DNA of 59,230 bases from an uncultured Alphaproteobacteria bacterium (lineage in GTDB: Bacteria; Pseudomonadota; Alphaproteobacteria; RF32; CAG-239): assembly GCA_944390915.1 (NCBI GenBank), contig CALXRS010000011.1:1-59230 (forward strand), read 5' to 3'. Each line of letters starts with the position of its first letter. The stretch's first letter is position 1. The notes beneath the pieces are model-generated. The model was not told the DNA's origin. It did no database searches and saw nothing but the letters and a program-made list of their open reading frames with translations. Positions 27,180 through 43,503 of this stretch are shown piece after piece. The translations under genes and the position numbers were made by a program.

Positions 27180-29009
27180 TTACTTCCGCCGGAACAGGCG
27201 CAGTTTATTTTTTTCTTTTTTCTCCAAACGAGCCGTTTGAGCGTCTATTTTGTTTTGATCAACAGCGGGAATTTGGGGACGCTTCAGACCGTTTTTGATT
27301 TTTTCTTCCGTTTTCCGGCGGTTAAATTCGCCGGTATCGTCTTTGAGGTTCAAGGCATGGTTCCATTGAAAGCGGGCTTCCCGTTTGCGGCCGATCTGCC
27401 AGTAGGCGTCGCCCAGATGGTCGTAGATAACGGCTTCCGAGGGAGCCATGCTCGATGCTTTTTCCAAATATTCGACGGCTTTTTCATAATTTCCGATTTT
27501 GTAAAAAGCCCAACCGATGCTGTCGGTAACGGTGCCGTCGTCGGTGACGGGATTGTAGGCGGAAACAATCAGTTCAAAGGCTTCTTCAAGGTTTTTGTTT
27601 TGCAAAAGCAAAATATAACCGAGATGATTTTGGGTAAATTTGTTCGGCCGTATTTTCAGCACCTTACGCAGATATTCTTCGGCCTTGCCGTTGTCGCCGG
27701 CGGCGCTGTGGGAAATGCCGATGGCAAAATAAAGCGGCCAGACATCGGTCAAATCTTCGTCGGGATAACATTCAACGGCCTGCAGATAAAAATCCGCCGC
27801 TTCCCGAAAGCGTCCGTTTATGCGGGCAACTTCCCCCAAATTGGTGAGGATGTCCGGATTGGGCGGATAGTTCAGATAAAGGTTTTTGAATATTTTTTCG
27901 GCCTCTCTCGTTTTGCCGAGGCGAAAAAGATTTTTTGCGGTGTGAAAAAGGGCGGTATAATAGGCATAGCTGTCTTTGGGAACTCGGGCATAGGCTTCGT
28001 TTGCTTCCGTATAGAGCTCTCTTTTTTCGAGCAGGCTTGCGATCAGCAGCTGGGGCAGAGGGTATTCCGGCGAGCAGTAATATGCCAGAGAAGCAAACAA
28101 AATGGCGATTTCGGCGTTGCCGCTGTTTTGTTGCAGCAACAATGCTATGCTGAACAAAGCGTCGGCCAGGCCGACATTGGGATTTTCAAGGAACGGAGGG
28201 ATGGACGAATCGGCTTTTTTAATTTCGTCGATAACCGTTTTCATCATCAGATTGTCTTTGTTGATTGCCAGACTGGCCGCGCGCAGAGCTTTGTCGGGTT
28301 CTTGTTCGCGCAGATAAAAATTGGCAATGACCTGCAGCGAAAAGACCGAAAGTTCCATATGACGCAGGTTCATCAGCGCCGTATAGTGAGCTTCCGCGGC
28401 TTTGGTATTTCCCAGATAATCGTTGATGGCGCCGGCGTGGAACAGATAGAGCGGGCGAAAAGCCGGATCTCCCGCCAGCGGTGAGAGAGCTTTCAGGGCT
28501 TTTTTGTCTTCTTTCAGACCGGCATAGCCCCAGGCGGCGATAAGCGGGTTAAAAAACTTTTCGGAGACGGGGTTGCTGCAGTCGTCGACGACATCGACGG
28601 CTTCCTGAAATTTTTTGTTTTTTAGGAGACTAACGGCTTCGATTGTGCAGATGAAAGGGCTGTCGTCGCCCTGTTCGCGGGCAATTTGCGCGTATTTGAC
28701 GGCCTCGTCGATTCTGCCCTGAGAAGTGAGCATGACATAAAGCTGGGTGGGCAGCATTTTTTCTTTGGGCACATAAGGAATCGAACGCTTATAATAGTCG
28801 GCGGCCTTGTTCAGATCGTGTCGAAGATGGGCAACCCAGCCGGCAAGATAGCTGCCGTAGTTGCGATATTTGCTGTCGGCGGGGGCGTTGTTTGCTTCAG
28901 CGGTTGCCGGCGCTTTGGAAAAATCCTGCGAAGGGCAAAAGTAGGTGCAGGAGTTGGCTACGATGATGCCGATCAGGACAGACAGGATGTAGGCTGCTTT
29001 TTCAATCAC
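27180..29009 (-). CDS. Large TPR-repeat protein with N-terminal anchor
   Basis: This 609-aa protein has a hydrophobic N-terminus (residues 6-20, YILSVLIGIIVANSC) and then TPR-type helical repeats through residue 560. Examples are NYGSYLAGWVAHLRHDLNKA, AIGISHSAAGDNGKAEEYL and DSIGWAFYKIGNYEKAVEYL. The cysteine after the hydrophobic stretch gives only a poor lipobox, so a membrane anchor or cleaved signal are both possible. Comparable TPR proteins lie next to uracil-DNA glycosylase and lytic transglycosylase genes in many alphaproteobacteria. It is probably a periplasmic scaffold; the C-terminus is basic. Confidence 0.82.
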   Translation of the reverse strand: MIEKAAYILSVLIGIIVANSCTYFCPSQDFSKAPATAEANNAPADSKYRNYGSYLAGWVAHLRHDLNKAADYYKRSIPYVPKEKMLPTQLYVMLTSQGRIDEAVKYAQIAREQGDDSPFICTIEAVSLLKNKKFQEAVDVVDDCSNPVSEKFFNPLIAAWGYAGLKEDKKALKALSPLAGDPAFRPLYLFHAGAINDYLGNTKAAEAHYTALMNLRHMELSVFSLQVIANFYLREQEPDKALRAASLAINKDNLMMKTVIDEIKKADSSIPPFLENPNVGLADALFSIALLLQQNSGNAEIAILFASLAYYCSPEYPLPQLLIASLLEKRELYTEANEAYARVPKDSYAYYTALFHTAKNLFRLGKTREAEKIFKNLYLNYPPNPDILTNLGEVARINGRFREAADFYLQAVECYPDEDLTDVWPLYFAIGISHSAAGDNGKAEEYLRKVLKIRPNKFTQNHLGYILLLQNKNLEEAFELIVSAYNPVTDDGTVTDSIGWAFYKIGNYEKAVEYLEKASSMAPSEAVIYDHLGDAYWQIGRKREARFQWNHALNLKDDTGEFNRRKTEEKIKNGLKRPQIPAVDQNKIDAQTARLEKKEKNKLRLFRRK

Positions 29010-29147: not shown

Positions 29148-29924
29148 ATGATGAACGAGAGAGAATTGCTGGAATGGTATTTAACGGCCGGCGTGGAGTT
29201 TTTCTGCGGCGACGTCCCCGGCTGCCTGAAATCCGTTGCTCCCGCGGCGGAAACTCCGTCCGCGGGCGAGGCTGCAAAACAGCCGCGGCCGGCCATGACC
29301 GATTTGGCGCAGATGAGCATGCGCGCCTGCAAAAACGCGAGAGACATATCGGCCTCCGCCGCCACGCTTTCCGAGCTTCGGCAGGCGGTGGAAAGTTTTG
29401 AGGGATGCGCTTTGAAAATGACGGCCGGAAAAACGGTTTTCGGCGGCGGCAATCCGAATGCCAAAATCGTTATCGTCGGCGAGGCGCCGGGAGCGGACGA
29501 AGACAGAATCGGCGAACCTTTTGTCGGTCGCAGCGGGCATCTGCTGGACAAGATGCTGGCTGCCGTCGGGTTGAACAGGGACAAAGTGTACATTACCAAC
29601 GTTTTGCCCTGGCGTCCGCCCGGCAACCGCACGCCGACCGACGCCGAAGTGGCCGTGTGCCTGCCTTTTCTCCGTCGGCAGATTGAGCTGATCGAACCGC
29701 GGATAATCCTGATTTTGGGAGGCAGCGCCGCCAACAGTCTGCTGGACAATGAGGAATCTATTTCCCGCCTGCGGGGCAAGTGGTTGGAGTATAAATTTGC
29801 CGACGATAAAAAAGCGGACGCGCTGGCCAGTTTTCACCCGGCGTATCTTTTGCGCAACCCCGCGCAAAAGGGCAAAGCATGGGCGGATTTTCTGCGTTTG
29901 GCAAAAAAATTGCAAAATAATTAG
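29148..29924 (+). CDS. Uracil-DNA glycosylase, family-4-like
   Basis: It removes uracil from DNA. The core motifs are VIVGEAPGADEDRIGEPFVG, YITNVLPWRPPGNRTP and the end motif SFHPAYLLRNP. Classical family 4 enzymes hold a 4Fe-4S cluster with four cysteines; here only some are retained (FEGCALK, VAVCLPF) and the third site reads LPWRPP instead of KCRPP. That altered form is, from memory, usual in alphaproteobacteria. The N-terminal 75 residues are variable. It is divergently transcribed from the TPR gene. Confidence 0.88.
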   Translation: MMNERELLEWYLTAGVEFFCGDVPGCLKSVAPAAETPSAGEAAKQPRPAMTDLAQMSMRACKNARDISASAATLSELRQAVESFEGCALKMTAGKTVFGGGNPNAKIVIVGEAPGADEDRIGEPFVGRSGHLLDKMLAAVGLNRDKVYITNVLPWRPPGNRTPTDAEVAVCLPFLRRQIELIEPRIILILGGSAANSLLDNEESISRLRGKWLEYKFADDKKADALASFHPAYLLRNPAQKGKAWADFLRLAKKLQNN

Positions 29925-29942
29925 TTTTTTGTTCATAATTTG

Positions 29943-29971
29943 TTGGTAAATTGAAAAAAATGGATTATTAT
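29943..29971 (+). promoter_or_regulatory. Promoter for the paired exported proteins
   Basis: TTGGTA at 29943-29948 and TATTAT at 29966-29971 have a 17-bp spacer, just before the ATG at 30010 with its GAGGAAA site. The unit probably runs through the lytic transglycosylase at 31542. Confidence 0.5.
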
Positions 29972-30009: not shown

Positions 30010-30762
30010 ATGAATATTAGCAAAAAAGTTTTCTGTCTGGCTCTCGGTGCAATGCTTTCGGCGGGTATCAGTCCGGCGCAGGCGCAGCGGAACAACAAGG
30101 CGACGCCGCCCGTCAATGACGAGCAGGAAAGTGAGATTCTGTTTAAGATTCACAATATCGTGCCGGTCGAAAACAGCGAAGGCGAAGTTATAGCCTGCGA
30201 CTTTGATACTACTTTCTATAACCGTTCATCCTATAACCTCAGGGAAGCTTCGCTGGAATTCAATTGGTCCGACCCTTCCATCCAAAAGGTTATTGAAGAC
30301 GAAAAAGAAGAAGACGCGCGTCGACAGGATCGTCGCGGTTCCCGCCGCAACTATTCGGAAACGGAACGCCGTACTTCCGACGGTGTCAGCGTGATGATTG
30401 AGGCGCCGGCGCTGAAGTCTTATCGTCAGGCTACCGTTAACAATCGTATCAACACGGATCGTTGCTTCCTGTTGCTCGAAAAAGTCAATTTTTCGGTATC
30501 GAACTGTTCTGCCGACGGCATGCAATCCGCCGGTCGCGGCAATCGTTCCCGGGGCGAAAGCAGCGTATGCTCCAAACTCTTCAAATATGTCTCGCCCGAA
30601 GATGCTCAATATTATCTTGAGTTTAAGGAAATAACCCCCGATGAAGAGGCTTCTCAGGAAGAAGCGAAAAGAAAAGCCAGCAAAAAGGAAGCTGCCGATA
30701 TCTATACCAGAGCCGTCAATGCCCTTGACGCAGCCGGAAACATCGTCTCCGGTATCAAATAA
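30010..30762 (+). CDS. Exported cysteine-pattern protein A, 250 aa
   Basis: I do not recognise a named family. A signal peptide (cut near AQAQ, residue 26) leads to a mature protein with four cysteines: C63, C152, C166 and C187. Motifs are EGEVIACDFDTTFYN, SLEFNW (Trp 86), DRCFLLL and VSNCSADGM. The same cysteine and Trp spacings recur in the next gene, so the two are paralogues. A charged insertion (about 95-125, Arg/Glu-rich) and a helical Lys/Glu-rich tail are specific to this copy. It is probably periplasmic with disulfides, and it opens a unit ending in the lytic transglycosylase. Confidence 0.8.
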   Translation: MNISKKVFCLALGAMLSAGISPAQAQRNNKATPPVNDEQESEILFKIHNIVPVENSEGEVIACDFDTTFYNRSSYNLREASLEFNWSDPSIQKVIEDEKEEDARRQDRRGSRRNYSETERRTSDGVSVMIEAPALKSYRQATVNNRINTDRCFLLLEKVNFSVSNCSADGMQSAGRGNRSRGESSVCSKLFKYVSPEDAQYYLEFKEITPDEEASQEEAKRKASKKEAADIYTRAVNALDAAGNIVSGIK

Positions 30763-30788
30763 GCCTTTGCCGGCGGAGGAGGAAACCG

Positions 30789-31508
30789 ATGAAAAATACA
30801 AAATTGCAAATGTTGATGTATGTCGGCATCGTCGGTATGATGTTGTCCGGAACGGCCGAAGCCCAATATTTCGGCTCGGCTACCGCGACCCGTCCTTCTC
30901 CCGCGCGGCAGATGCAGCAACCGTCGGCCGGCAGGACTCAGGAGCAGATTCGGGAAATAGGCTCCGAGGCGGCGACCGATGAAAAATATTCGGCGGTAGA
31001 ACCCGTGGAGGCAAAAGAAGACGACGAAACTGTCGAAAAGCAAAATGTCAGCACGCCTTTTGACTATGCCTACGGCAAAACTCCCGAAAAGAAAAAGCAG
31101 GCGCCCGCCAAACAACTTTATCGACGCTATTCCACGGTCGGCGGCGTTACGGTGGAAACGGATGAGGAAAACGAAGAAGACGAGCTGATCATGCTGTATA
31201 TGAAAAACTTTTCCGTTTACCGCAGCCCTTCCGGCCAGACCCGCTGCAGCGCGCGCTTTGCGGTGTTGACCACGCTGCCGGTTAAGCTCTCAAACATCAG
31301 CTATCGGTTGAAGTGGCCAAACATGGAAACGGTGCTCAGTTTCAGCGACGTGGAACCGGGAGTGGAAAACCATTTTGACTACGGGCTTTTGGGCGACGGT
31401 TGTTTCAGTATGGACAGACAGCCGAACATTGTGGTCAATCGCTGCCGCGCCAAAGGAATGACCCAGCGCGAATGCGCCGCAAAAATCCGTTGGATTAAGG
31501 AAATCTGA
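30789..31508 (+). CDS. Exported cysteine-pattern protein B, 239 aa
   Basis: This is a paralogue of the preceding protein. A signal peptide (cut near AEAQ, residue 26) is followed by a low-complexity, charged region to about residue 130, then the shared domain: SGQTRCSARFAVL (C153), SYRLKW (Trp 176), GDGCFSMD (C205) and VVNRCRAKGM (C219), with C229 near the end. The distances C to W (23), C to C (14) and C to M (5) are identical in both proteins. It lies 26 nt after protein A and 33 nt before the lytic transglycosylase. Function is unknown; an envelope role is inferred. Confidence 0.8.
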   Translation: MKNTKLQMLMYVGIVGMMLSGTAEAQYFGSATATRPSPARQMQQPSAGRTQEQIREIGSEAATDEKYSAVEPVEAKEDDETVEKQNVSTPFDYAYGKTPEKKKQAPAKQLYRRYSTVGGVTVETDEENEEDELIMLYMKNFSVYRSPSGQTRCSARFAVLTTLPVKLSNISYRLKWPNMETVLSFSDVEPGVENHFDYGLLGDGCFSMDRQPNIVVNRCRAKGMTQRECAAKIRWIKEI

Positions 31509-31541
31509 AAGGCGGCGCGGAGATAGGACGCGGGAGATAAA

Positions 31542-33302
31542 GTGAAAAAAATTTTGATAGTGATGCTGACGCTGTTGCTGCTCCCTCCCGGAGCGGTGGC
31601 AGCGTCCAGCTCTTTTAAAGCGGTGGATGACGGCGTGCGCCGGCAAGTTTTGGCAAAATCCGGCGTCAGCGAAAACGACCTTTCTCTGTATCGCGAAATT
31701 TTTGCGGCTCTTGACAAAGGCGACGCAAAAAAAGCCGAAGACCTGCAAAAAAAATTGAAAACAACGGCGTTGAACGGTCATCTGCTGGCGGAAAAATATC
31801 TGCGCACGGATTATCCGTCGACTTATGAAGAGCTGCAGGCCTGGCTCAAAAAATATCCCTATCTGCCGCAATATCCGAAAATAAAAAGTCTGGCCGTGGT
31901 AAAGGCGCCGGGGTACAAACCGCCCAAACCCGGAAAAACGGAAAAAAAGCTTTATGCTTCGTACGATTGGTATCGCGACGGTTATAAAAACCTGAAGCCT
32001 GCCGACCGGGCTTTCGTTAAAGAAAAAAATGACGAATTTCTGCTTGCCATACGCAAAAGCCGGCTGAAGAAAGCGGGCAGGATTCTTGAAGACGCGCGCT
32101 TTAGAAAAGTTATGCCGGTGAAAAACTATGACGCCATGCAGGCAACCCTTGCTTCCGCCTATTTTCTGGAGGGAGATTACCAATATACGCTGAAATGGAG
32201 CCGCCAGCCGATTATGCGCAGCAGCGACGCCACGGCCTGCTGGTTCGGCGGGCTGGCTGCCTGGAAAGAAAAGGACTATCAATTGGCGGCCGACTATTTT
32301 GAGCGCCTGGGCAAGCTTGAAAACAACGACGAATGGCTGATTGCCGCCGGCGCCTATTGGGCCTATCGGGCAAATATCCGGCTGAAAAACCCCGATGGCG
32401 CCACCCGCAACCTGCGGCGGGCAACGGCGTATCCGCGTACTTTTTACGGCATTTTGGCGCGTTATATGCTGACCGACAAGGTGGCTTTCGACTGGCGGCA
32501 GACAGGCTATTACAACCGGACGGACGGGCATTCTCACATCAAAGAGATTGTTTCGGCACCGACCATGCGGCGGGCGCTGCTGCTGATTTTTGCGGGGCGG
32601 CCGGATCTGGCGGAAAGCGACCTGCGTTACAACTACCGCAAATTTAACATTCGCCAGAAAGAGCTGCTGATGTTTATTGCCGCTCAATACAGCCTGCCGA
32701 ATCTGAGTCTGGTTGCCGCTGGCCGCCTGAAAAACTATGCCAAAGGCCGGGCGTACGACGCTTTCATGTATCCGCTACCGGACTGGGAACCGGCCAAAGG
32801 CTGGCAGGTCAATCCGGCGTGGATTTGGGCTCTGGTGCGTCAGGAATCGCTGTTTTCACCGTCGGTGCAGAGCCATGCCGGTGCCTGCGGGCTGATGCAG
32901 ATAATGCCGGCGACGGCGGCGGAAACGACCGGCGACGGGAGTTTCAAGAAAAACAGCCGGCCGCTGTTTGACAAAGACATTAACCTGGCCATCGGGCAGG
33001 ACTATGTTTCCCTGCTGAGGGAAAAAGACTTTGTCGGCGACAACCTCATCTTTTTGGCTGCCTCGTACAACGGAGGACCGCATAACCTGAAACGCTGGGT
33101 GAACAATCTGGATTATGACGGCGACCCGTTAATGTTTATGGAGATGATTCCCTGGAAAGAAACCCGTCTTTACGTGAAAAGAGTGATAACAAACTACTGG
33201 ATATATTCTTCGCGGTTGGGGCAAAAGCCGCAAAGCCTGATGCAGTTTTTGCAGGGAAAATGGCCGCTTTTGGATGGCATCGACCAACGGGCGCCGGCTT
33301 AA
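31542..33302 (+). CDS. slt: Soluble lytic transglycosylase
   Basis: It cleaves glycan strands in the periplasm, forming 1,6-anhydro-muropeptides. A signal peptide (LTLLLLPPGAVAA) is followed by a long alpha-helical superhelix domain (about 60-400) and a C-terminal lysozyme-like domain. The catalytic Glu lies in WALVRQESLFSPSVQSHAGA, followed by CGLMQIMPATA and AASYNGGPHNLKRWV. The start is a GTG at 31542 after GGGAGA. At 586 aa its length is typical of Slt70-like enzymes. Confidence 0.94.
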   Translation: MKKILIVMLTLLLLPPGAVAASSSFKAVDDGVRRQVLAKSGVSENDLSLYREIFAALDKGDAKKAEDLQKKLKTTALNGHLLAEKYLRTDYPSTYEELQAWLKKYPYLPQYPKIKSLAVVKAPGYKPPKPGKTEKKLYASYDWYRDGYKNLKPADRAFVKEKNDEFLLAIRKSRLKKAGRILEDARFRKVMPVKNYDAMQATLASAYFLEGDYQYTLKWSRQPIMRSSDATACWFGGLAAWKEKDYQLAADYFERLGKLENNDEWLIAAGAYWAYRANIRLKNPDGATRNLRRATAYPRTFYGILARYMLTDKVAFDWRQTGYYNRTDGHSHIKEIVSAPTMRRALLLIFAGRPDLAESDLRYNYRKFNIRQKELLMFIAAQYSLPNLSLVAAGRLKNYAKGRAYDAFMYPLPDWEPAKGWQVNPAWIWALVRQESLFSPSVQSHAGACGLMQIMPATAAETTGDGSFKKNSRPLFDKDINLAIGQDYVSLLREKDFVGDNLIFLAASYNGGPHNLKRWVNNLDYDGDPLMFMEMIPWKETRLYVKRVITNYWIYSSRLGQKPQSLMQFLQGKWPLLDGIDQRAPA

Positions 33303-33637: not shown

Positions 33638-33901
33638 ATGATTATGACAGTGATATTTATATTGTTCCTCGCTTCCATTATCTGGGGTGCTATTGAGAAT
33701 CCTCTGGAGACACTCATAAGCCGCCTGGTCGAAGTCGTTATAAGCGCTTTTTTGGGAGCGTTTATAATATGGCTTCTCATGGCTCTTTTCGGTTTCGGAG
33801 AGCTATGGTGGACAGGGGCAATATTAGGAGCAGGATACTGTGTATTCTGCTGGATATTCCGTAAAAGGAATATTCTGGTTGCCACCTGGTTTACCAGGTA
33901 A
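33638..33901 (+). CDS. Small membrane protein, 87 aa
   Basis: It has three probable membrane segments (about residues 3-18, 30-52 and 56-74: IFILFLASIIWGAIE, VVISAFLGAFIIWLLMALFG, WTGAILGAGYCVFCWIF) and a basic C-terminus. I do not recognise it. The start is uncertain: ATG 33638 or 33644 are possible, but the only good Shine-Dalgarno is 30 nt upstream, across a T8 run. A clear terminator follows, supporting a real transcription unit. Confidence 0.55.
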   Translation: MIMTVIFILFLASIIWGAIENPLETLISRLVEVVISAFLGAFIIWLLMALFGFGELWWTGAILGAGYCVFCWIFRKRNILVATWFTR

Positions 33902-36422: not shown

Positions 36423-36450
36423 CGAAAACGTGACTGAAAGAAGACTGCCG

Positions 36451-37329
36451 ATGAAAAAACTTTTTGTCTTTTTGCTTTTTTTGCAGATTATGATCGACAG
36501 TGCGGCACAGGCTTATGTATCAAAAGAAGAAGTGGCGCCGTATTACCGCCGTCCGGAGCATAAGCAACTTGTGCCGACAAGGCTTTTTTCAGACTATTTT
36601 GTCGGGCGCGGATATCATTTCAAAACCAATCCGACGCAATGTCCCTATGCGCTGACCGTTGAAGGAAAAGAAGCCAACCATTTTGCCGGCACGGCATATT
36701 TTTATGAATGCCGGCAGGGGTTGTTCCATTCTTTTCGCATATTTATATATCGCAATCTGCCGGCTCATCTGGTTGAAGAAAGCCTAAATGACGTGGAACA
36801 TCTGTTTGATCGGGCCGCCTCCCAAAGAATGGAGATGAACTCTTTTCTCAGTCACTGTATAAATGCCGAGCCCGGATATCGAAAAGTTTTTGACGACGAA
36901 TATTATACGGCGGAATGTCGCGTTTACAAAGACGACTATGTTTTTGCTTTGACACAAAAGGAAAAACACGAACATCCCTCGGCGGAGGTGTCCGAAGATG
37001 CCGAATGTATGACGGATGAGGAATATATCAAGGCGGTGAAAGACGTGTTGCGCAAACGGGCGGAATTTTCCGACCGGATGGAAGAGTTTTATTTGGCTTA
37101 TCCCGATGAGGCGCCGGAGGGCTGGGAGGAACAAAGAAAAAAGGAATTGTTGAAAAAATATAAACAGCCGTCCAAAAAGTCCAAATATCCCGATCCGTAT
37201 ATATACAAACACAAACGCCCCAAGAAAAAGCGCCCGCAGCCGGAAGAAAATCGCGGCGAACAGCGGCCGATTGAACTGATAGGAAAGAAAATCAATGACT
37301 GTCTATATGATAAGACATGCGCAGAGTGA
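36451..37329 (+). CDS. Exported orphan protein with seven cysteines
   Basis: I do not recognise this protein. A signal peptide (LFVFLLFLQIMIDSAAQA, cut near residue 21) leads to a mature protein of about 270 residues with seven Cys (for example TQCPYA, YECRQG, SHCINA, AECRVY). A Lys/Pro/Tyr-rich tail (PDPYIYKHKRPKKKRPQP) precedes the end. It is translated right after galE, 28 nt downstream, and its last 35 nt overlap the next gene. A basic tail like this could bind anionic glycan or cell wall. Confidence 0.75.
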   Translation: MKKLFVFLLFLQIMIDSAAQAYVSKEEVAPYYRRPEHKQLVPTRLFSDYFVGRGYHFKTNPTQCPYALTVEGKEANHFAGTAYFYECRQGLFHSFRIFIYRNLPAHLVEESLNDVEHLFDRAASQRMEMNSFLSHCINAEPGYRKVFDDEYYTAECRVYKDDYVFALTQKEKHEHPSAEVSEDAECMTDEEYIKAVKDVLRKRAEFSDRMEEFYLAYPDEAPEGWEEQRKKELLKKYKQPSKKSKYPDPYIYKHKRPKKKRPQPEENRGEQRPIELIGKKINDCLYDKTCAE

Positions 37330-37933: not shown

Positions 37934-37971
37934 AGCGGCATATTGTCATATTTATGGGGAGTCTGCCGCTC

Positions 37972-40900
37972 ATGAAAAACATTTTTTCGCCGAAAATTTT
38001 GAAAATTTTTGCCGTCCTGCTGCTGCTTGTTGCCGCTGCAATCGGCGGTTGGTATTGGTATCTGTCGGCCAAAAGCTTTGAGCTTAACCCGACCGAAATA
38101 ACCGAAGTTTCGTTAAAATCGGTAAAAGCCCCCGCCGCGCCGAGTGTCGGTTCAATGCATTTCTTGCCCGACACGGTGGAAATTTGTTTTGACGCGCCGC
38201 TGTTTAAGCCCGGACTTGACGAAAACGAACTGAACAAAACATTGGCGTTGACCCCGCCTTTGGCAGGCAAATGGGGATTGCGGGGCGATACCGGACTTTC
38301 GTTTCGCCCGAAAAAAGACTGGGTGCCCGGGGAAAAATACAGCTTTCGGCTGCCGAAAAGCCTGCTTTCCGCCGGCGTGCGTCTGCCGGACGACAATATT
38401 TCTTTTAACGCGCCGGAGTTTGCCGCGCAAACGGAAAAGGCGGAATTTTACGAGGCGCCGCAAGATGTGACCGACAAACGCGCGGTGGCAAGCTTTTTCT
38501 TTACCTATCCGCTGGCAACGAAGGATTTGGAAAGCAAAATCAAAGTTACCGCCAACAGCGGCAAAAAATACGATTTTACCTATAATCTGACCGATGGCGC
38601 TCACCGTCTGCACGTGATGTCTTCGGCCATAAAAATTGCGCCCGCGGCCGATTTTATCAATATCGAAGTAGCCGATGCCGGCAATGCCTATAACGATGTC
38701 AAACTTTCCCGTCCGGTTAAGGCAACCGTTGCCGTGCCGGCCGCCGCCGACTATTTCCGGGTGTTGTCGGCAGAAGGCAAAATTGCCGTCAACGAGCAGC
38801 GGGAAAACCGTCCGGAACAGGTGCTGCCGGTGGTTTTTTCCACCGCCGTCCGGGCCGATGAGGTGCAAAACAACATTGTGCTGAAAGAGGGCAATACCGA
38901 TAATTGCCTTGAGCTGAAAGAAAAGTTTGCCGCCCTCGCGGAAGACAAAAAGGCGGAAATTTTTGCTTCTTTTGCTCCCGTGCCGCTTGTTGCCGTCGAA
39001 GCAAAAGCCAAAGACGGCAAAACCCATGTTTTGCGTTTTGACTATACGGGGCAAAAATGTCTGGCCGCCAAAATCGGCGGCAACATGCGCTCGCTTGAGG
39101 GCTATACGCTCGGGGCGGATTATTTCTTTTTCTTTTATCCGCCGCAATATCCGACCGAGGCCAAAATAGCCTTTGACGGTGCTCTGCTGTCGCTTAAAGG
39201 CGATAAAAACCTGCCGCTTGTTTCCCGCGGGGCGGACAAGCTGTTTGTCAAGCTTGCGCGTATTCCGGCGGAAAACATCAATCATCTGGCCACGCAGACG
39301 GCCGGCGGGTTTGCCGAACCTTATTTCCTGAACCGCTACAGCTTTAACGAAGACAACATTGCCGAGGTTTTTGAAAAGGAAATCACCGTCAATATGAAAC
39401 ATCCGGCAGATGAAACATATTCTTCGATTGAACTCGATTCTTATTTCAGGGAACAAAAAGGGATTTTCCTCATCCGGCTGCAGGGCTCAAGAAACAACGG
39501 CATTCTGTCGGCGGAAGACGTGCGACTGGTGGTGATAACCGACCTCGGGCTGATTGTTAAAGATAATGCCGACGGCACGCATGCGCTGTGGGTTTCCTCC
39601 ATTGCCGGAGAAACGCCCGTTGCCGGCGCAAAAGTGGAAGTTCTGGGACAAAACGGCCGGCCGATTGTTACCGCGACAACCGATGCCGAAGGATATGTTT
39701 TGCTGCCGGACTTTTCGGCTTTCCAAAACGACAAGCGGGCGGCGGTTTATAAAGTTTCGCTAAACGGGGACGTGTCTTTTCTGCCGATAAATCGCTTTGA
39801 TCGGCGGCTCGATTTGTCGCGTTTTGACGTCGGCGGCGAATATGACAATCTTTATGCGCCGAAAGATCTGGTTGAGGCCTTCGGCTTTTCCGACCGCGGC
39901 ATCTATCGCCCCGGGGAAAGCGCGCATTTCGGTCTGATGGTGCGGCAAAAGGATTTGCGGGTGCCCTCCGGACTGCCGCTTAATATAGAAATCCTTACGC
40001 CGGACGGTAAACAGGCCGCGGTTAAAAACGTGTGGGCAGATTCTTTCGGGTTTGTCGATTATACTTTTGATATTCCGCAGACGGCGGCGCTCGGGCGCTA
40101 TATGTTGAATTTGCGGCAGATACGCGATGATAACGAATATTATCAGATAGCCTCGACGGAATTTAACGTGCAGGAATTCAACCCCGATACCATGCGCCTC
40201 AAACTGCAACTGAACGACGCGCCCGCCAAAGGCTGGTATCTGCCGCGGAAAGTTGCGGCCGATGTCGATTTGCAAAATCTTTACGGCAACCCGGCCGGCG
40301 GACATCGCGTGCAAAGCGGGTTCAGCTTAACGCCGGTCAACTTCACCTTTGCCGAATATCCGGGGTATGTTTTCCGCGATCCGCTGCGGGCAGGGGAAAG
40401 GCATGTTGCAGGCATTCGCCGCGATTTGCCGGAAACAACGACCGACAAGGACGGGCAGGCGACGCTGGAGATAAATCTGGACGAATTTTCGGGCGGCGCC
40501 TACCGGCTTGACGTGTGGGCGGACGGGCTTGAACTGGCCGGCGGCAGAGGCGTTTCGGCAGAGGCTTCGATGCTTGTTTCGGCCAACCCGTGGCTGGTCG
40601 GTTATAAAGCCGACGGCAGCCTGACAAATATTCCCCGACAAAGCAAAAGAACCGTCAACTGGCTGGCGGTGGACAATCTGCTGACCCCGTCGGCAAAAGA
40701 CCGGCTGACACTGTCGCTGGTCAAGCGCGGTTATGAACAGACACTGGTGCAAATGCCCGACCGCACTTACCGCTATCGCACGGAACCGGTGGAAACAAAA
40801 TTGTGGAGCAGGGACTATGCCCTGCCGGCAGAGGGCGCAGATTATACGCTGCCGACGACGGAACCCGGCGAATATATTCTGGTGCTGACGGATGAGAGCG

Positions 40901-43503
40901 GCAGAGAAGCTGCCAAAATCTTCTATTCCGTCGCCGGCGGCACCAATGCCGATTTCGGAATAGAAGAAGATGCCGGACTCAAACTGAGCCTTGATAAGAA
41001 AGAATATCAAAGCGGCGATGTTATTCGGGTGCAGATGACGGCGCCTTATGCCGGCTACGGGCTTGTGACCATTGAGCGCGACAGGGTTTATGCCTGGAAA
41101 TGGTTTAAGTCCGACAAGCCTTCCGCGGCGGTGGAAATAACCTTGCCCGAAGGCGTGGAAGGCAATGCCTATGTCAACGCGGCATGGGTCAGGAGCCTGC
41201 AGTCCGACAAGGTTTTTGCCGCGCCGCTCAGCTATGCCGCCGCGCCGTTTGACATCAACAAAGCCGCCCGCGAGCTGAAAATCACGCTTGCCGCGCCGGC
41301 GGTCGTTAAGCCGGGGCAGGAACTGGTCGTTAATTATCAGACGGATTATCCGGCGGAAATCATCCTTTACGGCGTCAATACCGGTATTTTACAGGTGGCA
41401 GACTACAAATTGCCCGATCCGCTGGCGTATTTTCTGCCCAAAAAGGCTCTGCAGGTGGCAACCATGCAGATACTCGATCTGATTTTGCCGGATATGGAAA
41501 TCGTCCGCTATCTGAAAGGTGTCGGCGGTGACGGAGAAGCCGGAACGCAAAAGGAACTGCGCGTCAATCCGTTTGCCCGCCGCCGCGATGCGCCGGTTGC
41601 TTTTTGGAGCGGCATTTTGCCCGCGGACGAAAAAGGCGGCGTCTATCGTTACCGGGTGCCGGAAAACTTTAACGGAGAAATTCGCCTGATGGCCGTTTCC
41701 GCCTCGGCGGAAAGAATGGGCAAGGCCGAACGCGCGGTTGCCGTTCGCGGTGATTTTGCGCTGACGCCTTCGGGACCGTGGAACGTATCTCCGGGCGATG
41801 AATTTACGGTCGGTCTGGCAGTGGCCAATATGCTGGAAAACACGACCGGACAAACGCCGGTAGAGGTGCGTTTAACCGCCGGTGCGGGGCTGGCGATCGT
41901 CGGTCGGGACAAAGCGGAGATTTCGCTTGCCGCCAAAGAGGAAGGGCGTGTTTTCTTCCGTGTTAAGGCCTTGGAGCGGCTGGGCTCGGCAACGCTTGCC
42001 TTTGTGGCGGAAAATAAGAACAACCCCGAAGAACGGGCGCGAATATCTTATGATGTCGGCGTGCGTCCGGCCAATGCTTTCAGCACCCGGTCGACCATGG
42101 GCTATACGGCTTCGGGCAAACTGGAACTGACGGATTTTGTGCTGCCGATGTATGCTGAAGAGTGCAGTCGGCAGGCGGAGGCATCCGCTTCACCGCTGGT
42201 GCTGACAACCGGTCTGCTCGATTTTCTGGAGCATTTTCCGCATTCGTGCACCGAGCAGTCGGTCAGCAAAATCTTTCCGGCCATGGAGATTTTCTTTAAC
42301 CGGCCGGAACTGGTGGAAGGGACGGACATCTACGCCCTTTACGACGATGTTATTGCCAAACTTGCCGCCCGGCAGACCATTGACGGCAGTTTCCGCGCCT
42401 GGCCGTCCGCCTGGTCGGCGCCGAAAGAGTTTGACAGCCTCTATGCCCTGAACTTTCTGATAGAGGCCAAAAAGAACGGGTTTGAAGTGCCGGCGGGGAT
42501 GTTTGATCGGGCGCTTTCCTATGCCCGCAAAACCGCTGCCCGCAAAACACACGACGCCAACGACAGCAATCCGGCCTATGCCGCCTATCTTCTGACCTTA
42601 AACGGCGAAGTTACTTCCTCTTATCTGTTGAAAATTGAAGAAGAACTGAACCTGCGGGAAAACGCAAAGGCGCGCTCGTCGTTGGCGGCGGCCTATCTGG
42701 CGGCGGCCAACCTGCTGCTTAAAAACGAAAGCGGCGCGCGGGCGCTTGCCGGAAACTATGAATTCGGGCAAAACGACGCCGACAACGCCCGCTATCTTTA
42801 TCTGGCGGCAAAACATCCGTTCGGCAAGAGCGAAAACGGTCTGAGCGAAGAAGAAACAAAAGCTTTGTTGCAGCCGCTTAAAAACGGTAATTTTACCACC
42901 ATTCAATCGGCCTGGTCGCTGCTTGCCCTGAATGCCATCGGGCAAACGCCGGCCGATGTCGGCATAGCTTTCGACGGCGTGCCGTACGAAGGAAAGGGAT
43001 TTGCCAAAAAAGAGCTGCAACCGACGATGACAAAGTTGGAAATTGCCGCAGCGGAGCCGTTTTATTATGCTGTCAATCAGCAGGGGTATCTTAAAGTTCC
43101 GGTTGAAGAGGCAAGGTCTGACGGTTTGGAAATAAATAAAAAATATCTCGATAAAGAAGGGCGCCGGTTGACCGCTTTTGCCGTCGGCGACGAGATTACG
43201 GTCGAGATTTCCCTGCGTTCGCTGACCGGCGGATATGTCAACGACGTGGCCGTGACCGACCTGTTGCCCGGCTGTCTGGAAATGGTGCAGGATTCCGTCA
43301 GCGGCGAAACCGATAACTACGAACTGCGGGAAGACCGCGCGCTGCTTTATCTTTCGGCAGCGCCGTCCGCTCGAACGGTACGCTATCGGGCAAGGGTAAC
43401 CGCCGAAGGCAGCTATGTCGTGCCGGCCGTTTTTGCCGAAGCTCTCTACGACCCGTCGGTTGCCGCCAACAGTGCCGCCGGCCGCATACTTGTGATTGAG
43501 TGA
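37972..43503 (+). CDS. Bacterial alpha-2-macroglobulin, membrane-anchored
   Basis: At 1843 aa this is a YfhM/ECAM-like protease trap. The N-terminus has one membrane segment (about residues 8-28, FAVLLLLVAAAIGGWYWYL) rather than a lipobox, so it is anchored in the inner membrane. MG domains follow, then a complete thioester motif C1426-T-E-Q1429 (SCTEQS) and an alpha/alpha toroid region. Known relatives trap attacking proteases that pass the outer membrane. I set the start at 37972 after GGGAG. The stop overlaps the pbpC start, the classic A2M-PBP1C pairing. Confidence 0.93.
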   Translation: MKNIFSPKILKIFAVLLLLVAAAIGGWYWYLSAKSFELNPTEITEVSLKSVKAPAAPSVGSMHFLPDTVEICFDAPLFKPGLDENELNKTLALTPPLAGKWGLRGDTGLSFRPKKDWVPGEKYSFRLPKSLLSAGVRLPDDNISFNAPEFAAQTEKAEFYEAPQDVTDKRAVASFFFTYPLATKDLESKIKVTANSGKKYDFTYNLTDGAHRLHVMSSAIKIAPAADFINIEVADAGNAYNDVKLSRPVKATVAVPAAADYFRVLSAEGKIAVNEQRENRPEQVLPVVFSTAVRADEVQNNIVLKEGNTDNCLELKEKFAALAEDKKAEIFASFAPVPLVAVEAKAKDGKTHVLRFDYTGQKCLAAKIGGNMRSLEGYTLGADYFFFFYPPQYPTEAKIAFDGALLSLKGDKNLPLVSRGADKLFVKLARIPAENINHLATQTAGGFAEPYFLNRYSFNEDNIAEVFEKEITVNMKHPADETYSSIELDSYFREQKGIFLIRLQGSRNNGILSAEDVRLVVITDLGLIVKDNADGTHALWVSSIAGETPVAGAKVEVLGQNGRPIVTATTDAEGYVLLPDFSAFQNDKRAAVYKVSLNGDVSFLPINRFDRRLDLSRFDVGGEYDNLYAPKDLVEAFGFSDRGIYRPGESAHFGLMVRQKDLRVPSGLPLNIEILTPDGKQAAVKNVWADSFGFVDYTFDIPQTAALGRYMLNLRQIRDDNEYYQIASTEFNVQEFNPDTMRLKLQLNDAPAKGWYLPRKVAADVDLQNLYGNPAGGHRVQSGFSLTPVNFTFAEYPGYVFRDPLRAGERHVAGIRRDLPETTTDKDGQATLEINLDEFSGGAYRLDVWADGLELAGGRGVSAEASMLVSANPWLVGYKADGSLTNIPRQSKRTVNWLAVDNLLTPSAKDRLTLSLVKRGYEQTLVQMPDRTYRYRTEPVETKLWSRDYALPAEGADYTLPTTEPGEYILVLTDESGREAAKIFYSVAGGTNADFGIEEDAGLKLSLDKKEYQSGDVIRVQMTAPYAGYGLVTIERDRVYAWKWFKSDKPSAAVEITLPEGVEGNAYVNAAWVRSLQSDKVFAAPLSYAAAPFDINKAARELKITLAAPAVVKPGQELVVNYQTDYPAEIILYGVNTGILQVADYKLPDPLAYFLPKKALQVATMQILDLILPDMEIVRYLKGVGGDGEAGTQKELRVNPFARRRDAPVAFWSGILPADEKGGVYRYRVPENFNGEIRLMAVSASAERMGKAERAVAVRGDFALTPSGPWNVSPGDEFTVGLAVANMLENTTGQTPVEVRLTAGAGLAIVGRDKAEISLAAKEEGRVFFRVKALERLGSATLAFVAENKNNPEERARISYDVGVRPANAFSTRSTMGYTASGKLELTDFVLPMYAEECSRQAEASASPLVLTTGLLDFLEHFPHSCTEQSVSKIFPAMEIFFNRPELVEGTDIYALYDDVIAKLAARQTIDGSFRAWPSAWSAPKEFDSLYALNFLIEAKKNGFEVPAGMFDRALSYARKTAARKTHDANDSNPAYAAYLLTLNGEVTSSYLLKIEEELNLRENAKARSSLAAAYLAAANLLLKNESGARALAGNYEFGQNDADNARYLYLAAKHPFGKSENGLSEEETKALLQPLKNGNFTTIQSAWSLLALNAIGQTPADVGIAFDGVPYEGKGFAKKELQPTMTKLEIAAAEPFYYAVNQQGYLKVPVEEARSDGLEINKKYLDKEGRRLTAFAVGDEITVEISLRSLTGGYVNDVAVTDLLPGCLEMVQDSVSGETDNYELREDRALLYLSAAPSARTVRYRARVTAEGSYVVPAVFAEALYDPSVAANSAAGRILVIE

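Follow-up and report, generated by a model that had tools for sequence, protein, structure and literature searches.

It is largely an open question how bacteria hold their own wall-cutting enzymes in check and direct them to their sites, and to our knowledge few protein regulators have been described for enzymes of the Slt type. The window analysed here (the whole 59,230-nucleotide stretch of DNA from an uncultured alphaproteobacterium) raises this question in a concrete form: two exported cysteine proteins, A and B, are encoded just before slt, and an earlier note on this DNA had proposed that they form a pair controlling or targeting that transglycosylase. Are A and B related to each other, how constant is their place beside slt, and what becomes of them in genomes from which the enzyme is gone?

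Organization of the A-B-slt locus

The features considered are the following (coordinates in the window, strand, description):

27180..29009, minus strand, exported TPR-repeat protein, divergent (Pfam TPR families), a conserved neighbour of the cluster
29148..29924, plus strand, family-4 uracil-DNA glycosylase (UDG; TIGR00758, E=1.5e-63)
29910..29971, plus strand, two weak promoter-like sites (found by consensus scan alone, 9/12 matches in each)
30010..30762, plus strand, protein A, ORF of 250 aa
30789..31508, plus strand, protein B, ORF of 239 aa
31542..33302, plus strand, slt, exported Slt70-type soluble lytic transglycosylase of 586 aa, with a GTG start at 31542

Both ORFs upstream of slt were recovered as originally described, and each opens with a signal peptide read by eye (approximately residues 1-26, ending AQAQ, in A; ending AEAQ in B, where Ala25-Gln26 is nearly invariant). 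After export, A and B would be periplasmic. The genes are closely spaced, with 26 bases between A and B and 33 between B and slt, and 85 bases separate the start of A from the end of the UDG gene, its constant upstream neighbour. The promoter-like sites, which fall around the 3' end of UDG and between UDG and A, mark a possible start of an A-B-slt transcript, a consensus match being no functional evidence.

The slt product carries an SLT domain at residues 418-522 (PF01464, E=1.1e-19 in the Pfam scan) and matches solved Slt-type enzymes at E-values down to 2e-25, and Glu435 of the catalytic Q-E-S is invariant in the slt alignment. With an SLT catalytic domain, the catalytic Glu and a long N-terminal region before them, it belongs to the Slt70 type.

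Several other elements were seen around these genes. Inside the first slt codons (31568-31606), a 17-pair stem-loop with a T-rich tail could attenuate slt or could be due to chance. After slt, an 87-aa ORF (33638-33901) reads as a membrane protein, and small ORFs resembling it also follow B in slt-less genomes (L066, L067, L068, L070 and L083). Farther along, the window encodes another exported cysteine-containing protein (36430-37329, 299 aa, no significant Pfam match) and a very large ORF of 1849 aa (37954-43503).

Paralogy and predicted fold of A and B

Residues invariant in A are Cys63, Trp86, Asp88, Gln140, Cys152, Cys166 and Cys187 (alignment of 73), and those invariant in B are Cys153, Gly202, Cys205, Pro212, Cys219 and Cys229 (alignment of 77). 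The identical spacings previously reported for the two proteins are all exact, i.e., 23 residues from Cys to Trp (Cys63-Trp86 in A, Cys153-Trp176 in B), 14 from Cys(F) to Cys (Cys152-Cys166, Cys205-Cys219) and five from Cys to Met (Cys166-Met171, Cys219-Met224), and four cysteines are invariant in each family, the last two lying 10 residues apart in B and 21 in A. The end motif C-x-A-x-G-M, which had been proposed as shared, survives only in part: its Cys is invariant, but its Gly and Met vary, and it was therefore dropped as a signature of the family.

Comparing the domain profiles of A and B gave E=9.1e-9 with a score of 52.7, above all 150 column-permuted controls (maximum score 21.8) and the reversed profile (15.4); profiles built from full-length alignments gave E=2.3e-6. 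Because the domain profiles match above these controls and the profile alignment brings the four invariant cysteines of each protein into register, A and B are paralogues, as the earlier note had argued. Within the window's genome, each profile finds solely its own gene.

The description of the family as unnamed likewise stands. No family was found for A or B in Pfam and NCBIfam scans or for seven B-like proteins in a Pfam scan, a sequence profile search against PDB sequences gave no match for B and two chance-level matches for A (E 0.49 and 0.66), and the A-B pair was not found in a limited literature search. Judged by sequences and models, A and B are members of an undescribed alphaproteobacterial family that combines a signal peptide, one predicted beta-sandwich and four cysteines in matching order.

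AlphaFold2 predicts an Ig/FnIII-like beta-sandwich for both proteins, with a mean pLDDT of 85 for A and a pLDDT over 90 for residues 131-239 of B. The sandwich spans residues ~40-197 of A, followed by a long C-terminal helix (210-249), and the length of A varies, with a long low-complexity tail in some genera. In B, it occupies residues 130-239, after a low-confidence and probably disordered linker (~27-128). The best structural match for both models is IrmA (PDB 5ek5; VIA-align Z 8.5 for A and 8.4 for B), at 6 to 9% identity over ~105 residues and with Z barely above the usual background of 7 to 8. The models support a common fold of A and B; since Foldseek returned no match at E ≤0.001 for either model, and VIA-align Z values were at background for all matches except IrmA, no function is indicated by this fold.

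Distribution in the window's order and loss of slt

Homologues occur well beyond the window's genome, A being present in 144 of 152 genomes of the window's family and B in 143 of 153 genomes of its order, both nearly always single. According to record titles, A-B carriers are uncultured gut and rumen alphaproteobacteria, which we take to be filed under GTDB order RF32. The same alphaproteobacterial cluster is present in record L129, whose title, 'Lactobacillaceae bacterium isolate Mx356_bin52', is probably wrong.

Neighbourhoods were counted in 58 loci taken from named records, and 47 of these have the gene order TPR (divergent)-UDG-A-B-slt. B comes directly after A in each of the 57 loci holding both (median gap 16 bases), UDG precedes A in 57 loci, and the TPR protein occupies the same position in 55/58. 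The slt gene comes next after B in 49/58 loci (gap ≤62 bases); among the nine loci without it, three contigs end within 813 bases of B.

Across the order, slt was found in 89 of 153 genomes, directly after B wherever both were readable. It is absent from five genera (g2, g3, g6, g13 and g16), as well as from the single incomplete g10 genome, and A and B persist in these five genera, with B strongly diverged in g3. In a tree of the TPR protein and UDG, the sampled members of the five genera form one clade (99% SH-aLRT), so that one loss accounts for the absence of slt. Because slt was lost once and A-B survive across five genera, Slt is not the sole reason for A-B, and a role of the pair solely as Slt controller was rejected. 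The proposal that A and B exist to control this transglycosylase is thus unsupported as originally worded, since these genera keep A-B without slt and the B-like protein found elsewhere is usually single (see below): slt is a partner of A-B, not the master.

In some slt-less genera, the B motif around GDGCYSMDKxPNI is largely retained, which at the level of sequence looks as if the partner of B were A or something else. Fourteen genomes from the five slt-less genera were sampled, and 13 of them encode another SLT-domain ORF (~205 to 265 aa) elsewhere, with no match in the remaining one. In g2 and g3 (L066, L067, L068, L082 and L083), three genes that by sequence appearance resemble tolQ-tolR-tolA lie just downstream of A-B.

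B-like genes beside slt in other families

Relatives are also detected by the B profile in alphaproteobacterial families outside the order. In all 12 genomes read, from six such families (f4, f23, f51, f70 and f91 by locus reading, f74 and more of f91 from a survey of the regions upstream of slt), an Slt70-type slt is immediately preceded by a B-like gene, and no B-like gene was found away from slt outside the order among 385 class genomes at E below 1e-9. The earlier note had suggested searching alphaproteobacteria for pairs next to slt. The association with slt is indeed real and extends past the order, but the slt-linked unit there is usually one B-like protein and not a pair, and the association is not exclusive, given the five genera that lost slt.

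The genes preceding the B-like gene differ among these families. UDG lies just before it in f4 and is separated from it by one ORF in f51, in f23, f74 and f91 it is preceded by a divergent mpl- or ldcA-like gene, which by its sequence belongs to peptidoglycan recycling, and the contig ends upstream of it in f70. The B-like gene stays beside slt under either kind of neighbour, and the link to slt therefore outlasts a change of the upstream neighbour. UDG-slt without a B-like gene is the arrangement in most other alphaproteobacterial families surveyed, and in f40 an mpl-like gene adjoins slt with no B. As UDG serves in DNA repair and, in most of the families surveyed, lies beside slt with no B present, a functional tie between UDG and A-B was not adopted, and UDG probably stands outside the function of A-B-slt. 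On the slt tree, B-linked enzymes need three label changes vs. 12.1 in shuffles, and 13 of 15 B-less enzymes fall on one branch.

The ORF between UDG and the B-like gene in the f51 locus L108 (935-2542) encodes an exported protein of 536 aa with long charged stretches, in which a Cys is followed by a Trp at 23 residues and then by three more cysteines in the order of A. Its match to the A profile is weak (E ~7e-5, in a search of two sequences), and because the reading rests on weak profile scores plus the order of the cysteines, we hold the presence of an A-like domain as probable only. With a probable A-like domain in f51, the duplication may predate the order.

Possible roles of A and B

The reading that we tentatively favour, at a probability of about 45%, is that A and B represent an undescribed family of periplasmic accessory proteins in peptidoglycan lysis, whose duplication gave a probable heterodimer with a role beyond Slt. 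The single-copy B-like protein would be an accessory to the Slt70-type enzyme, for binding, positioning or setting activity in peptidoglycan cleavage. The window's order would use two copies, A and B, probably jointly as a heterodimer, to which B would contribute a compact domain on a flexible N-terminal tether, and A this fold extended by a long C-terminal helix. Since slt was lost while both A and B were kept in one clade, another partner or target must exist, which could be the small second SLT-domain protein kept by most genomes, or peptidoglycan. We infer disulfides in A and B, the A-B heterodimer, contact with Slt and the direction of regulation. In favour of an accessory role we count the paralogy with matching cysteines, the adjacency of A and B, the linkage to slt across families, the clustering of B-linked enzymes on the slt tree and the further SLT-domain ORF found after slt loss; against it, that A-B outlive slt, that the B motif is largely retained in some slt-less genera and that the fold matches give no function, and gene neighbourhood by itself is no proof of interaction. 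It seems unlikely that A-B is a regulator of two subunits, able to dock on two or more lytic enzymes, which has for that reason outlived its original partner Slt; this would be a new class of Ig-like autolysin adaptor, derived from a duplicated single slt-linked protein.

One might instead see in A and B envelope proteins of a general kind, whether structural, adhesive or surface-exposed, that are functionally unconnected to Slt, a B-like gene having landed beside slt once and this order having been inherited. Such a history would agree with the UDG-slt arrangement without B being common in alphaproteobacteria, with the presence of B on the slt tree, which fits one gain or loss and few further changes, with the retention of A-B after slt loss, and with the FnIII-like fold, common among surface proteins. 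However, B stays beside slt under differing upstream neighbours (UDG or mpl/ldcA), and the 385 class genomes hold no B-like gene away from slt outside the order, and we rate this explanation as less likely than not.

We consider it improbable that the B-like protein inhibits Slt and that A either counteracts this inhibition or is itself an inhibitor of a different target, much as IltA/LiiA act on MltF. An inhibitor with an anti-inhibitor acting on a lytic transglycosylase has a precedent (PMC10746161), and B does adjoin slt, but an inhibitor should be dispensable after the loss of its target, yet B persists without slt, and Pfam scans gave no sequence match to Ivy or MliC. Finally, a metal or redox site built from the four cysteines in place of structural disulfides, which would make A and B redox- or metal-handling envelope proteins, is likewise improbable: although they are invariant in 150 sequences, and neither DsbB nor VKOR was detected in the window's genome, this genome holds two DsbA-like thioredoxin-fold ORFs, the last two cysteines sit in a strand and the following helix at the spacings given above, which fits a disulfide, and no CXXC motif occurs among the invariant cysteines.

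If A and B are accessory proteins of peptidoglycan lysis, their natural single-copy, paired and enzyme-less versions would make it possible to ask what in an autolysin partner is dependent on the enzyme, and a pair of core genes in an uncultured gut order would gain a function.

Comparison with known systems

The Brucella proteins EipA and EipB, periplasmic and from an alphaproteobacterium, are required to keep the envelope intact; the Pfam scan of A and B returned neither DUF1134 nor DUF1849. IrmA of Escherichia coli is the top structural match to A and B, with no sequence match found. The small bacterial inhibitor proteins Ivy and MliC/PliC were absent among the Pfam matches up to E=1 for A, B and the seven B-like proteins; a passage in PMC10746161 adds that MltB, a lytic transglycosylase, is inhibited by the Ivy proteins of P. 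aeruginosa as well.

Two systems act on lytic transglycosylases through accessory proteins. In Pseudomonas aeruginosa, IltA and LiiA set the activity of MltF, IltA being a Sel1-like repeat protein at PA3978 and LiiA lying at PA5502, far apart by locus number (PMC10746161), whereas A and B are paralogues with a predicted beta-sandwich, and their genes adjoin each other and slt. DipM of Caulobacter crescentus, alphaproteobacterial like A and B, binds the soluble lytic transglycosylases SdpA and SdpB and stimulates SdpA, acting via a catalytically inactive LytM domain (PMC10336132), whereas Pfam and NCBIfam scans gave no LytM/M23 match in A or B. Lytic transglycosylases thus have protein regulators (PMC10746161, PMC10336132). 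By the domains tested, neither system shows a relation to A or B. We regard the family as new and its probable role as of a familiar kind.
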